Positions 2,996 through 25,785 of a DNA stretch of 64,000 bases are shown here, one piece after another. Every line of letters begins with the position of its first letter. Positions within the stretch are counted from its first letter, which is position 1. The stretch is from Synechocystis salina LEGE 00031 (GTDB lineage Bacteria; Cyanobacteriota; Cyanobacteriia; Cyanobacteriales; Microcystaceae), in the NCBI RefSeq assembly GCF_015207985.1, contig NZ_JADEVV010000017.1, positions 1-64,000 on the forward strand, read 5' to 3'. Under the pieces are notes generated by a model. It had not been told where the DNA came from. It did not search any database and was given only the letters and a program-made list of their open reading frames with translations. The translations under genes were made by a program, and so were the position numbers.

Positions 2996-3035
2996 TTTTT
3001 GAGGAACGCTTACTATTTTTGAGGAACGCTTACTA
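2996..3035 (+). repeat. 20-bp perfect tandem duplication covering the DUF2442 ribosome site
   Basis: Two adjacent identical copies of TTTTTGAGGAACGCTTACTA lie at 2996-3015 and 3016-3035. Each holds the ribosome-binding sequence GAGGAA. Only the second copy is followed by the bases that complete the ATG of the DUF2442 gene at 3035. Twenty is not a multiple of three, so the duplication also changes the frame of any DUF4160 reading frame running through it. Confidence 0.95.
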
Positions 3036-20731: not shown

Positions 20732-20822
20732 ATTAGGTAGATATTGAATGGTGTAAATAGTCACCATTGTTTAGTATTCGATTAGCCTAGCCTGTTCAAA
20801 CACTTTAACCAAAGGTATGTCC

Positions 20823-23357
20823 ATGGCAATCACCGCATTTACCCTGGGAGACTTTTTGCAAGCCAATGGCTATATGCCCCATGGCCATTGCTACCTTTGG
20901 CAAACTCCCCTGGTCTGGCTCCATGTCACCGCCGATTTCTTCACGGCGATCGCCTACTATTCCATCCCCGTCATTCTGCTGTACTTCCTGCGTAAGCGAC
21001 AGGATATTCCCTTTCCCAACATTATTTTTCTATTTGGGGCCTTTATTCTATGTTGTGGTACCAGTCATTTTTTTGACATTGTTACCCTCTGGTATCCCAT
21101 CTATTGGGTATCCGGTGCAATTAAAGCTTCCATGGCGATCGCTTCCGTCATCACCGTCTCTGAATTAATTAAAATTGTACCCAATGCTCTGAACTTAAAA
21201 TCTCCCACAGAATTGGCCAGCCTTAATCTTGCCCTTAATCAAGAAATTAAAGAAAGACAAACAGCCGAAATAGCGCTACAAGAATTAAACAATCATCTTG
21301 AAAAAAGGGTAGAGGACCGGACTACTCAATTAGCAAAAATCAATCAACAGTTAGAACGGGAAATTCAGGATAAAACCCAAGCAAAAGAAGCCCTAGAAAA
21401 AAACAAAGACCAACTAGCGCAATTAGCCGCCATTGTGGAATCTTCCCAGGATGCCATTATTAGCAAAACTCTAGATGGGATAATCACTAGCTGGAACGAG
21501 TCCGCCGAAAGATTATTTGGCTATACGGCTGAAGAAATGATTGGCACCCATATCACCAAGCTGATTCCTGAAGGTTTAATCATAGAAGAGGATCTTATTT
21601 CCGAATGTATTCGCCAGGGTCAGAGGATTAATACCTACGAAACTCAAAGACAGCGTAAGGATGGCAGTAAAATTGATGTTGCCCTGACCATTTCTCCCAT
21701 TCGAGATGAGCACAGAAATGTGGTGGGAGCGTCTAAAATCGCGCGGGATATTACCGCTAGATTGGAGGTGGAAAATGCCCTACGGGAAAGTCAACATTTC
21801 ATTGAAAAATTAGCCAATTATTCTCCCCAAATTCTATACATTTTAGATCCCATTGCCTGGAAAAATATTTATGTTAATTATCAGTCTTTAGAAATCCTAG
21901 GCTACACCCCAGAGGAATTTAAAAATGGTGGCACCGAGTTGTTATTAGATATTATCCATGGCGATGATTTATCCACCCTCTATGAAAATCAAAACTTTTG
22001 GCAAACTGCCCAGGAAGGTCAGATTTTAACCACCGAATATCGTATGCGGCACAAAAATGGGTCTTGGCGATGGTTACGTTCCAGGGAAGTGGTTTTTGCT
22101 CGAGATGACTATGGCCAAGTTACCAAGGTTTTGGGTACAGCCCAAGATATTAGTGATAGTAAAAAACAAGAGCAAAAGCTCTATGAACAGGGGCGCCGGG
22201 AGTTACTACTAAGGCAGATTACCCAACGCATTCGCCAATCTTTAGATCTACCAACTATTTTTGAAACGGTGGTGCAGGAAATTCGTCAATTTTTAGGGGC
22301 GGATCGAGTGGTAATTTTTCAGTTTGCATCAGCTACAAATTTTGCCATTGGCGACATTGTGGCAGAATCAGTATTACCCTCTTTTCAATCTCTCCTCAAT
22401 CAAACTATTGAAGAAACTTGCTTTAGTAGCAATTACGCCCACAAATATCAACAGGGTAGAATCCAAGCCATTGAGGATATTTATCAATCTACTTTACGTC
22501 CATGCCATATTGATTTCTTGGCCGGTTTACAAGTGAGGGCTAACTTGGTTTTACCATTGGTCAATGACGCAGTTTTATGGGGCTTACTCTGCATCCATCA
22601 ATGTGATCAGACTCGACTTTGGGAACCAACGGAAATCGACTTGCTTAAGCAGATAACTAATCAGTTTGAAATCGCAATTCAGCAGGCCATTTTATATGAG
22701 CAGGCCCAACAGGAACTAGCTTCAAAAAATCATCTTTTTGTTCAGTTAACCAATGAGTTGCAACAGAAAAAAGTTCTACTCAAAGAAATTCATCATCGGG
22801 TTAAGAATAATTTACAAATCATGTCTAGTTTGCTTTATCTGCAATTTAGTAAAGCATCTCCAATGGTGCAGAAGTTAAGTGAAGAATATCAAAATCGTAT
22901 TCAGTCCATGGCCCTTATCCATGAGCAACTATATCGCAGTGAAGACTTGGCCAATATTGATTTCAATGAATATCTCAAAAATTTAACCCATAACATTTGC
23001 CAAAGCTATGGTTTTCACCAGGGAGATATTAGTATAAAACTTTTGGTTGAGCAAGTTAAAGTGCCCCTGGAACAATCTATTCCTTTGGGGTTGATTATTC
23101 AAGAATTAGTGTCTAATGCTTTAAAACATGCTTTTCCCACCGCAGTTGGGGAAATTTCAATTCAGTTTACCTCAGTGGAAAATCATTATAGCCTCCAAGT
23201 ACAAGACAACGGAGTGGGGGTATCCAAGGAGATTGACTTGGAAAATACTGATAGCTTGGGTATGCAACTTATTTACAGTCTTACCGAGCAACTGCAGGGA
23301 GAATTGCATTATCAATATGCCGACGGCGCTAAATTTGCCCTGCAATTTTCAATTTAG
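20823..23357 (+). CDS. etr1: Ethylene/UV-A receptor histidine kinase SynEtr1 (UirS)
   Basis: An 844-residue hybrid photoreceptor and ethylene receptor. Three N-terminal membrane helices (about 26-110) carry the copper-dependent ethylene site: Asp38, Ile75, Cys78 and His82 in ILCCGTSHFFD, aligning with plant ETR1 Ile62, Cys65 and His69. A coiled coil (about 125-200) precedes two PAS domains (about 205-320 and 330-445), a cyanobacteriochrome GAF domain (about 465-630) with the candidate bilin Cys561 in RPCHIDF, and a HisKA_2/HWE-type kinase (KEIHHRVKNNLQ) with N- and G-boxes. ATG 20823 follows AAAGG better than ATG 20817. In PCC 6803 (slr1212) it signals to UirR and governs negative phototaxis and biofilm traits. 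Confidence 0.93.
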   Translation: MAITAFTLGDFLQANGYMPHGHCYLWQTPLVWLHVTADFFTAIAYYSIPVILLYFLRKRQDIPFPNIIFLFGAFILCCGTSHFFDIVTLWYPIYWVSGAIKASMAIASVITVSELIKIVPNALNLKSPTELASLNLALNQEIKERQTAEIALQELNNHLEKRVEDRTTQLAKINQQLEREIQDKTQAKEALEKNKDQLAQLAAIVESSQDAIISKTLDGIITSWNESAERLFGYTAEEMIGTHITKLIPEGLIIEEDLISECIRQGQRINTYETQRQRKDGSKIDVALTISPIRDEHRNVVGASKIARDITARLEVENALRESQHFIEKLANYSPQILYILDPIAWKNIYVNYQSLEILGYTPEEFKNGGTELLLDIIHGDDLSTLYENQNFWQTAQEGQILTTEYRMRHKNGSWRWLRSREVVFARDDYGQVTKVLGTAQDISDSKKQEQKLYEQGRRELLLRQITQRIRQSLDLPTIFETVVQEIRQFLGADRVVIFQFASATNFAIGDIVAESVLPSFQSLLNQTIEETCFSSNYAHKYQQGRIQAIEDIYQSTLRPCHIDFLAGLQVRANLVLPLVNDAVLWGLLCIHQCDQTRLWEPTEIDLLKQITNQFEIAIQQAILYEQAQQELASKNHLFVQLTNELQQKKVLLKEIHHRVKNNLQIMSSLLYLQFSKASPMVQKLSEEYQNRIQSMALIHEQLYRSEDLANIDFNEYLKNLTHNICQSYGFHQGDISIKLLVEQVKVPLEQSIPLGLIIQELVSNALKHAFPTAVGEISIQFTSVENHYSLQVQDNGVGVSKEIDLENTDSLGMQLIYSLTEQLQGELHYQYADGAKFALQFSI

Positions 23358-23414: not shown

Positions 23415-24140
23415 ATGAGAAGTAAGGTGTTAATTGTGGAGGATGAACGACTGGTGGCCCAGCACATTGCTCAGTTGTTAAAGAGCGATGGTTATGAAGT
23501 TTGTGCGATCGCCAGTGATGGAGCAACGGCGCTGAAAAAAATTGCTGAATTTTACCCAGATTTAATTTTGCTAGATATTCGCATTAAAGGGGAGATTGAC
23601 GGAGTAGAGGTGGCTGAGCGGATTAAATCTCTCTATTCCATTCCCATTGTTTATCTCACAGCTTTTTCCGATGGCGAAACCCTGGAGCGGGCCCAGAAAA
23701 CCAATCCCCAGGGCTATGTGATCAAGCCCTTTAGGCGACAACAACTGATCTCTACACTGGCGATCGCCATGGCTAACCATCAACAGCAAGAAAAACCAGA
23801 GGAAGACAATCTCTCCGGATCAACGGGGCATTATCGCCTGCAACCGACCTTGGACTATATCCAAGAACACCTCGACCAAGGCATTACCGTTGAGTTTCTG
23901 GCCGGGGCGATCGGCATGAGCACAGCCTACTTTTGTCGCTTTTTCCAAAAGGAAATGGGGTGTTCACCCTACCAATTCATTATTCAACAACGGGTTGAGC
24001 GAGCCAAAATAATATTACTGGAAAGGGAATTGCCCATTAGCGAAGTCGCGTTGAGATGTGGCTTCAGCTCCCACAGTCAGCTTAACTACCATTTTCGTAA
24101 CCTCTTGGGCATTACCCCGAAGGAATATCGCAGTCGTTAG
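23415..24140 (+). CDS. uirR: Response regulator UirR, receiver plus AraC-type HTH
   Basis: A 241-residue transcription factor. The receiver domain (about 1-120) starts KVLIVEDERLVAQH, has the phospho-acceptor Asp in LILLDIRIKG, a conserved Thr in IVYLTAFSD and Lys in YVIKPF. A linker leads to an AraC/XylS DNA-binding domain (about 140-241), with two helix-turn-helix motifs, including AIGMSTAYFCRFFQKEMG and CGFSSHSQLNYHFRNLLGITPKEYR. The ATG at 23415 gives MRSKVLIVEDER; the open frame further upstream is not homologous. In PCC 6803 (slr1213) it is phosphorylated in response to UirS and activates lsiR downstream. It is 57 bp after etr1, so in one operon. Confidence 0.92.
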   Translation: MRSKVLIVEDERLVAQHIAQLLKSDGYEVCAIASDGATALKKIAEFYPDLILLDIRIKGEIDGVEVAERIKSLYSIPIVYLTAFSDGETLERAQKTNPQGYVIKPFRRQQLISTLAIAMANHQQQEKPEEDNLSGSTGHYRLQPTLDYIQEHLDQGITVEFLAGAIGMSTAYFCRFFQKEMGCSPYQFIIQQRVERAKIILLERELPISEVALRCGFSSHSQLNYHFRNLLGITPKEYRSR

Positions 24141-24179
24141 CGTTTCCTAGGTAAAACCCACGCAAAAAAATAAAATTGA

Positions 24180-24208
24180 TGTCAAAAATCAACTAGTTTG
24201 TCAAAAAT
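24180..24208 (+). promoter_or_regulatory. 10-bp direct repeat, candidate UirR operator
   Basis: TGTCAAAAAT occurs perfectly at 24180-24189 and 24199-24208, a 19-bp centre-to-centre spacing close to the roughly two-turn spacing used by AraC-family regulators. It lies downstream of the AraC-type uirR gene and upstream of its known target lsiR. A possible -10 (TAGGAT, 24236-24241) follows. The assignment to UirR is inference. Confidence 0.4.
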
Positions 24209-24239
24209 TGACCAAGACAGATCTGGGAATTTTCCTAGG

Positions 24240-24666
24240 ATAGATTTGTGCTGGTGATAGGCGGGCTGTAGATGCCATCGGCTCAACTCCCCGCGTTGCC
24301 AAGGATTAGACCCATTCCTACCCGCTTATTTTTTAGGCAAGCTCTTGCAAGTTTGAATCCTAATTTACATTTTTAGGTCTGGGTCTTAGATAGCGGTTTC
24401 CTTCGACCCCAGGGCCTTGGCGAGCGAGATCCATGTTTTGGTGCCTTGACTAGCAACGAACACCAGCCGTTTTCCTTGAATCCTTCTGTGGTCAGTCCTA
24501 ATAGTCACCATTTGGTGCAACACCTAGGGAGCCGAGAATTTTCTCCTATGTCAACCCCCGTAACAGTTGAAATGGGGGAACTTCTCGCCCTTAGTTCTTC
24601 CCATGGCAAAGGTATCGACTGAACACTGTTATCGTTTATCCTCCAAAGCTTGCAAAGGAGTTTCCC
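24240..24666 (+). ncRNA. csiR1: csiR1 small RNA / long lsiR leader region (approximate limits)
   Basis: The 526-bp gap between uirR and lsiR is unusually long and has no credible gene. In PCC 6803 the small RNA csiR1 (carbon stress induced RNA 1) is encoded in exactly this gap and is co-controlled with slr1214. The sequence here shows a candidate promoter region ending near 24241, GC-rich structured segments around 24260-24330 ending in TTATTTTTT, and a strong hairpin at 24524-24594. The limits given are approximate: they are set by the promoter guess and the start of lsiR. Confidence 0.45.
24524..24594 (+). other. Long imperfect RNA hairpin in the lsiR leader
   Basis: CTA-GGG-CGAGAA (24524-24538, small bulge) pairs with TTCTCG-CCC-TAG (24582-24594), and an inner stem CCCCC (24555-24559) pairs with GGGGG (24574-24578) across a 14-nt loop. 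No T-tract follows, so it is not a simple terminator; it ends about 70 nt before the lsiR ATG. Confidence 0.6.
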
Positions 24667-25785
24667 ATGACCGCCGTAATCACCCGCCAAATTCCTAGCG
24701 AATTCCTGCAAACCTTAATTAAGGAAAAGGCCACCGGGAGACTGACGGTGCAGAATCCCCTTGATGAGTTGGTCACCTGGCAGGTTTATCTTGGCAAAGG
24801 GAAAATTAATTTTGCTAACAGTGGCGTGGGGGGGATGCAAAGGGTCAGGTATCTTCTGGGTAATTATCTGAATGAGAATAAAATTAGCCTACCTCCCAAA
24901 ATTACAGACGACTATAAATATATCTGTGACCTTTGGAAACAGGAAGTAATTTCCTTTCAGCAAACCCGCTCGATTCTAACTCAGTTTGCCCAGGAAGCAT
25001 TGGTTCATTTTTTGGCCATTCCCGTTACCCAATGTTATTTTGATCAAGACGATAGCATTAAGGACCTATTTCTTAATTTAGAATTGGCAAAAACCACCCA
25101 ATCTGTGGAACATAAGATTAGATACTGGGGAGAACTATATCCTCAGATCAATTCGCCTTTTCAGCGCCCCTTGGTGGAAAATTGGCAAGAAGTAAAAACC
25201 ATGCTGAATTTGAGCTATCGCCGCAGTGAACAGTGGTGTGAGCATCTCTTGGAGGGATTTAAAAATCTCTCTTGTTTATATGAGCTAGCCCGCAAAACAA
25301 ACAGCAGTGTTTTAGAGTTAGCCTTGTTATTTTATCCGCGGATTAAGTCAGGGGAAATCAAAATGTTGCCCTATCAAGAAATTTCAGTTGATGATACCAA
25401 CCTACCGGTGGTAATTTCCGTTAATAATCGACCCTCTGTGCAGCAAGTTGTGCGAGAAACATTGGGCCAGCGGGGTTTTAAAGTCGTTTGCATTGACGAC
25501 CCCTGCCACGCTTTAGCGGCCGCCATTAGTCATAATCCCCAGTTAATTCTAATTGATGCGGACATGCCGGGGATCAGTGGCTATGAACTCTGTCGTTTGC
25601 TGCGAAAATCTTCCGCGGTGAAGGAAACTCCCATTATTCTACTCAATCAAAATGATGGGGTAATGGAGCAAATTCAAGGACGTATAGCTAAGGCTTCTGG
25701 ACAGATCAATAAACAGTTTTTATCCCAAGAGTTGCTGCAGGTTAGGAAAGACTATTTGGATTCTGCCCCAGCTCTTTGCCCCTAG
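24667..25785 (+). CDS. lsiR: PatA-type response regulator LsiR (DUF4388 plus receiver)
   Basis: A 372-residue regulator of the PatA subfamily. The N-terminal DUF4388 domain (about 1-100) shows the motif ATGRLTVQNPLDELVTWQVYLGKGKINFAN, a helical middle follows, and a C-terminal receiver (about 245-365) has the phospho-Asp in LILIDADMPGISGYEL. There is no DNA-binding domain. In PCC 6803 LsiR (slr1214) is induced by UirS/UirR under UV-A and switches cells to negative phototaxis, probably through the type IV pilus motor. AAAGGAG lies well placed before the ATG. The long structured 5' region suggests post-transcriptional control. Confidence 0.9.
   Translation: MTAVITRQIPSEFLQTLIKEKATGRLTVQNPLDELVTWQVYLGKGKINFANSGVGGMQRVRYLLGNYLNENKISLPPKITDDYKYICDLWKQEVISFQQTRSILTQFAQEALVHFLAIPVTQCYFDQDDSIKDLFLNLELAKTTQSVEHKIRYWGELYPQINSPFQRPLVENWQEVKTMLNLSYRRSEQWCEHLLEGFKNLSCLYELARKTNSSVLELALLFYPRIKSGEIKMLPYQEISVDDTNLPVVISVNNRPSVQQVVRETLGQRGFKVVCIDDPCHALAAAISHNPQLILIDADMPGISGYELCRLLRKSSAVKETPIILLNQNDGVMEQIQGRIAKASGQINKQFLSQELLQVRKDYLDSAPALCP

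Follow-up and report, generated by a model that had tools for sequence, protein, structure and literature searches.

A conserved candidate UirR operator before lsiR and the changing sequences downstream of it in Synechocystis

Which part of the long gap between uirR and lsiR carries the signal that joins this light-responsive regulator to its target? The window, the 64,000-nucleotide stretch of Synechocystis salina LEGE 00031 DNA analyzed here, encodes on its plus strand a sensor kinase with ETR1_N, PAS, GAF, HisKA_2 and HATPase domains (uirS, slr1212/etr1-like; 20817-23357), a receiver protein with an AraC-type DNA-binding domain, HTH_18 and HTH_AraC (uirR, slr1213-like; 23415-24140), and a protein with DUF4388/PATAN and receiver domains (lsiR, slr1214-like; 24667-25785). 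The genes were assigned from their domains and, for lsiR, also from a tree, and the names uirS, uirR and lsiR are taken from the PCC 6803 literature. Gene order, the position of the promoter before csiR1 and lsiR, and the regulator domains are the same as in the UirS-UirR/csiR1-lsiR system of PCC 6803. For that strain, passages in citing papers report UV-violet induction through UirS-UirR: UirS phosphorylates UirR, UirR activates the csiR1 promoter and csiR1-lsiR is co-transcribed (PMC6508509, PMC6682694, PMC5812497, PMC3546692, PMC6236058, PMC5794059, PMC9614035), with phosphorylated UirR as the activator and a common start for csiR1 and lsiR (PMC6508509, PMC6682694, PMC5812497), and UirR~P drives PcsiR1 about 6-fold in E. 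coli (PMC6508509, PMC6682694, PMC5812497 and PMC9614035, citing Ramakrishnan & Tabor 2016). For PCC 6803, then, the link between regulator and promoter is established knowledge, to the extent that these citing papers report it.

The gap is exactly the 526-bp interval that an earlier note on this DNA had delimited (24141-24666), since the uirR stop ends at 24140 and the lsiR ATG lies at 24667. The two perfect repeats described in that note are also present: copies of TGTCAAAAAT occupy 24180-24189 and 24199-24208, 19 bp apart from start to start, and are the only ones on either strand of the window. Taken alone, this repeat is suggestive, mildly unusual but not compelling, as shuffled versions of the window hold a mean of 0.37 copies and at least two in 8 of 100 shuffles, dinucleotide shuffling of the gap yields some identical 10-mer pair at a distance of 11-40 bp in 78 of 5000 cases (27 of 5000 when only the first 120 bp are shuffled), and the whole window contains three 10-mer families with copies within 40 bp, TGTCAAAAAT included. 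It is conservation in five genomes, rather than these shuffle statistics, that marks the repeat as real beyond chance. Comparison of the five genus genomes (G000, the window's own, and G001 to G004) extends the unit from 10 to 15 bp, as GTCAAAAATYNNYYA is found in all ten half-site copies, and the first base of TGTCAAAAAT is T in seven of them and G in three. On this conservation we define half-site A (GTCAAAAATCAACTA) at 24181-24195 and half-site B (GTCAAAAATTGACCA) at 24200-24214, both on the plus strand; the ten half-site copies score 22.0-26.9, compared with 14.5 for the best other half-site in the window. The gap also holds TTTCCTAGG twice (24143-24151 and 24231-24239, 88 bp apart), and the upstream copy is not kept in G003 or G002 in the operator-region alignment. 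Elsewhere in the window, a 20-nt unit, TTTTTGAGGAACGCTTACTA, forms a perfect tandem duplication at 2996-3035.

Directly after half-site B, and sharing its last base, is a -35-like element read from the sequence as AAGACA (24214-24219, plus strand), which agrees with TTGACA at four of six positions; across the genomes it reads AAGACA or AGGACA, with GAC-A kept in all five. The possible -10 of the earlier note is identifiable by sequence and alignment as TAGGAT at 24236-24241 on the plus strand (TAAGAT in G002), and the second TTTCCTAGG copy overlaps it. The -35-like element lies 16-18 nt from the -10, while the start of half-site B is 36-38 nt from it in all five genomes, and the predicted transcription start falls about 7 nt past the -10, at 24248 on the plus strand. 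A generic sigma-70 scan of 24000-24800 called no promoter at the operator, its one match being elsewhere on the minus strand and at shuffle background. The arrangement is that of an AraC-type operator: a direct pair of half-sites, each of 15 bp and within the roughly 15-17 bp expected, the downstream one by a weak -35 at a near-fixed distance from the -10, and a cognate AraC-family activator, UirR, present in each of the five genomes. The AraC-type spacing proposed in the earlier note agrees with this layout. The araI1-araI2 pair of AraC is built in a similar way, with direct half-sites for a double-HTH activator and a weak -35 at the downstream half-site, but repeats at 21 bp compared to the 19 bp observed here; unlike AraC, UirR has a phospho-receiver as its signal domain. 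The promoter also sits where a UirR-dependent csiR1-lsiR promoter would be placed, between uirR and lsiR and before csiR1.

To define how specific the site is, we searched the five genomes for GTCAAAAAT-N8..12-GTCAAAAAT and found exactly one match in each (0 for the reversed control), always with a 10-nt spacer and always upstream of an LsiR-clade gene. Alignment of the operator region across the five genomes shows the boxes and the -35/-10 to be kept and little else. A phylum scan of 386 genomes, a sample that does not include G003, gave 10 matching genomes, of which four belong to this genus and all have the 10-nt spacer, and the six outside it have spacers of 8, 9 or 12 nt; four genomes had a reversed-control match, which sets the background. 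Among 291 genomes of the order, UirR reached E<=1e-45 in five, and these are the same five that carry the operator. Allowing up to three mismatches in the five genomes produced seven further matches against two for the control, all with three mismatches and one of them common to the close pair G000 and G004, and single half-sites elsewhere numbered 17 against 12 for the control (6 against 1 in G002). These counts suggest one strong paired site per genome, with additional weak sites possible.

Relative to the window's UirR, identity in the other genus genomes is 99% (G004), 88%, 75-76% and 66-67% (G002), and both HTH regions are largely invariant across the five. Searching genome contigs for UirR returned three loci at 27-34% identity, none of the genus, although near relatives may be excluded from that search. 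Six REC-AraC loci outside the genus were considered as possible UirR, and tblastn aligned five of them to UirR at 22-28% identity; none has both a UirS-like kinase and LsiR-like neighbors, apart from a single receiver/GAF protein close to the L069 gene, and because of the low identity and the lacking neighbors we do not treat them as UirR. A tree built from 20 PATAN-receiver proteins groups the G001 LsiR with the other four at 100/99; its placement inside the clade is at 92/90, and the G001 and G002 branches are long.

The G001 genome separates the operator from uirR altogether. An unrelated ORF begins 4 nt past its uirR stop and no lsiR lies beside uirR, while the operator and -10 are found on another contig, C16, well inside its 62 kb, in the order operator/promoter, EAL-domain gene and, 110 bp later, lsiR. 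As the G001 operator precedes this EAL-lsiR pair at a distance from uirR, the operator goes with lsiR and not with uirR, as expected of a UirR target acting in trans.

Downstream of the promoter, the window carries a csiR1-like RNA region on the plus strand (24248-24400, 3' end approximate), recognized by a primer match and alignment. The earlier note placed csiR1 in this gap, as in PCC 6803. The PCC 6803 csiR1 reverse qPCR primer (PMC6508509) matches 24332-24351 with 2 mismatches, and the region is 84% identical to G004 over 24245-24660; the forward primer, however, has no match within 3 mismatches and aligns by eye at about 24271-24288 with 4, so that homology to PCC 6803 csiR1 is judged from two primers of which one maps within 3 mismatches. 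By eye, the sequence of G004, a putatively 6803-like genome, too differs from the published primers. In G001 to G003 the only csiR1 matches were at E 0.7 or there were none, and absence from three of five genomes indicates that csiR1 is not essential to the operator's job. The stretch from the -10 to the lsiR ATG measures 425 nt (window), 426 nt (G004), 91 nt (G003) or 227 nt (G002), with the start of the leader, up to TGCCATCG, common to the window, G004 and G003 in the alignment. The 227-nt leader before lsiR in G002 (L037) is unrelated to csiR1 by alignment, 141 nt of it fold moderately well with z -1.94, and it could represent another RNA that has taken this position.

This pattern is similar to the csiR1 'actuaton' described by Kopf et al. 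2015 (PMC5386190). There, the sRNA cassette csiR1 has been integrated behind a conserved -10 and ahead of lsiR in 6803, whereas 6714 lacks it; the 204-bp gap of G003, a putatively 6714-like genome, compares with the 205 bp given there for strain 6714. The same authors describe the csiR1 start site in 6803 as rather constitutive under the conditions used. Beyond the 'actuaton', the two deeper genomes, G001 and G002, show further slot contents, which implies that the slot changed more than once and makes csiR1 one of several occupants of a conserved promoter-lsiR space, with two further states added.

We consider it very probable that the two 15-bp boxes are the operator of UirR, a candidate assignment based on one site per genome, its location before lsiR each time, the weak -35 geometry and the co-occurrence of UirR. 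The earlier note's proposal, with UirR binding at the repeats and csiR1-lsiR driven from there, gains support from the same observations, the five sites before lsiR, the AraC geometry and the presence of UirR in the same five genomes, with the contact itself predicted from sequence. Conservation and co-occurrence across five genomes, a small number, of one genus do not name the binding protein, and another genus-wide regulator might be involved. An inorganic-carbon or light-stress regulator, for example, could bind the boxes while UirR acts elsewhere in the promoter; PMC6508509 reports less csiR1 at high inorganic carbon and under ethylene and more of it on slr1214 deletion, which indicates that more than one input reaches the csiR1 promoter. 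We nevertheless regard this as improbable, since one paired site per genome suggests a dedicated rather than a global regulator, the boxes and the -35/-10 are nearly all that is kept in the five genomes, and the citing papers report that UirS-UirR suffices to operate the promoter in E. coli, a host with no cyanobacterial regulators of its own. Two further explanations we judge extremely unlikely. The conserved element could be a palindrome for a symmetric dimer, as GTCAA-AAA-TTGAC at 24200-24212 is perfect in the window, but the other four genomes lack it, having TCGAC, TCAGC, TCGAT and TCGCT in place of TTGAC, and retain the direct repeat. Chance similarity preserved only by the closeness of the species would fit the frequency of comparable pairs in the shuffled gap and the 99% UirR identity of G000 and G004; both boxes, however, are intact in G002, the genome with the most distant UirR, and in G001, where the element stands in another gene context.

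The remaining alternative shifts attention from the boxes to the RNA: a large csiR1 hairpin would be a conserved riboregulator on which the function of the gap mainly depends. The large hairpin of the earlier note does exist in the window, as a predicted structure on the plus strand (24308-24386; inverted repeat and folding) with arms at 24308-24320 and 24374-24386 and an inner stem-loop at 24333-24363, and 24300-24392 folds at z -2.35, with only 3 of 200 shuffles as good. Its conservation is not supported. In a comparison of two sequences, the window and G004, the outer stem is poorly kept, the G004 copy prefers another fold (z 0.05), and of 22 pairs 2 are lost and 3 vary on one side, with none changed two-sidedly; by comparison, the inner stem-loop keeps 11 of 11 pairs, with folding z of -1.09 and -0.73. 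Rfam returned three matches, at E 0.34-4.3 and 13-18 bits compared with the 47-53 required, such that no family reached its gathering threshold. As the RNA is also absent from three of the five genomes, we hold a riboregulator as the main element of the gap to be very unlikely.

Returning to UirR as the regulator that acts through the boxes, we combine the observed sequence, conservation, uniqueness and gene context with the activation by UirR~P taken from the literature, and infer the contact with the boxes, the two-protomer geometry and the start point. Two UirR~P protomers would bind the boxes head to tail, with the center of box B near -41 of the predicted start and that of the other box near -60, such that the downstream protomer could touch the weak -35 and help RNA polymerase at the poor AAGACA-N16-18-TAGGAT promoter. 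Transcription from there would pass through csiR1 and then reach lsiR by read-through. Because the site is the only paired one of its kind in each genome, UirS-UirR looks, from these sequences, like a one-promoter pathway with LsiR as its output. The known regulatory link would then be narrowed to a precise and testable 34-bp candidate operator. UirS-UirR is in use as a UV-violet/green optogenetic pair, and its dynamic range is reported at only about 6-fold (PMC9614035). The extent of the operator, its uniqueness and the changing downstream cargo are additions to that link of uncertain novelty: among the matches listed for TGTCAAAAAT in print, no paper is cyanobacterial by its title, and the UirS-UirR literature searched, which is secondary to the primary UirR papers, gave no operator sequence, although those primary papers may already describe it. 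Neither the single site per genome nor the separate EAL-lsiR operon of G001 features in the PCC 6803 accounts given in the citing papers.

The cargo itself differs from genome to genome, as the promoter module is kept and followed by csiR1 in the window and G004, a short leader in G003, an unrelated leader in G002 and an EAL gene in G001. Whether operator plus promoter act as a portable module for UV-A output, with cargo exchanged within the genus among an sRNA, bare leaders and an EAL-type phosphodiesterase with LsiR, is in our estimation evenly balanced. The G001 gene, identified by sequence scan and domains directly 3' of the UirR-type operator/promoter (minus strand, L036 1800-2723 on G001:C16), matches PF00563 at E 1.5e-74 and has the EVL, DDFG and EGVE motifs, so that both the EAL phosphodiesterase domain and its catalytic motifs are present and activity is predicted. 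Its first ATG is about 7 nt past the -10, and either leaderless translation or a later start is possible. An EAL gene also adjoins 9 of 15 other PATAN-receiver loci in the five genomes; the G001 lsiR pair resembles these pairs and is the only one among them with a UirR-type operator. Given how common such neighbors are, EAL-lsiR may be the older arrangement. In the EAL tree the G001 row is on a long branch and the order of arrangements is not separated, and the G001 EAL protein has no tblastn match in the window at 1e-3 that would mark a remnant in the gap.

If the module is portable, G001 offers a natural rearrangement where one signal is expected to induce LsiR together with a c-di-GMP enzyme. 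A single promoter in that species would then let UV-A alter both c-di-GMP and pilus direction, joining two branches of phototaxis control that have been investigated separately. According to two papers, raised c-di-GMP goes with reduced motility in Synechocystis (PMC7690835), and loss of an EAL domain in Thermosynechococcus leads to constant negative phototaxis (PMC9090330), a result opposite to the simple reading that a phosphodiesterase promotes negative phototaxis. The window's own genome has other PATAN-receiver genes with EAL neighbors, at G000:C23:26393-27457 (L051) and G000:C79:22190-23257 (L052).
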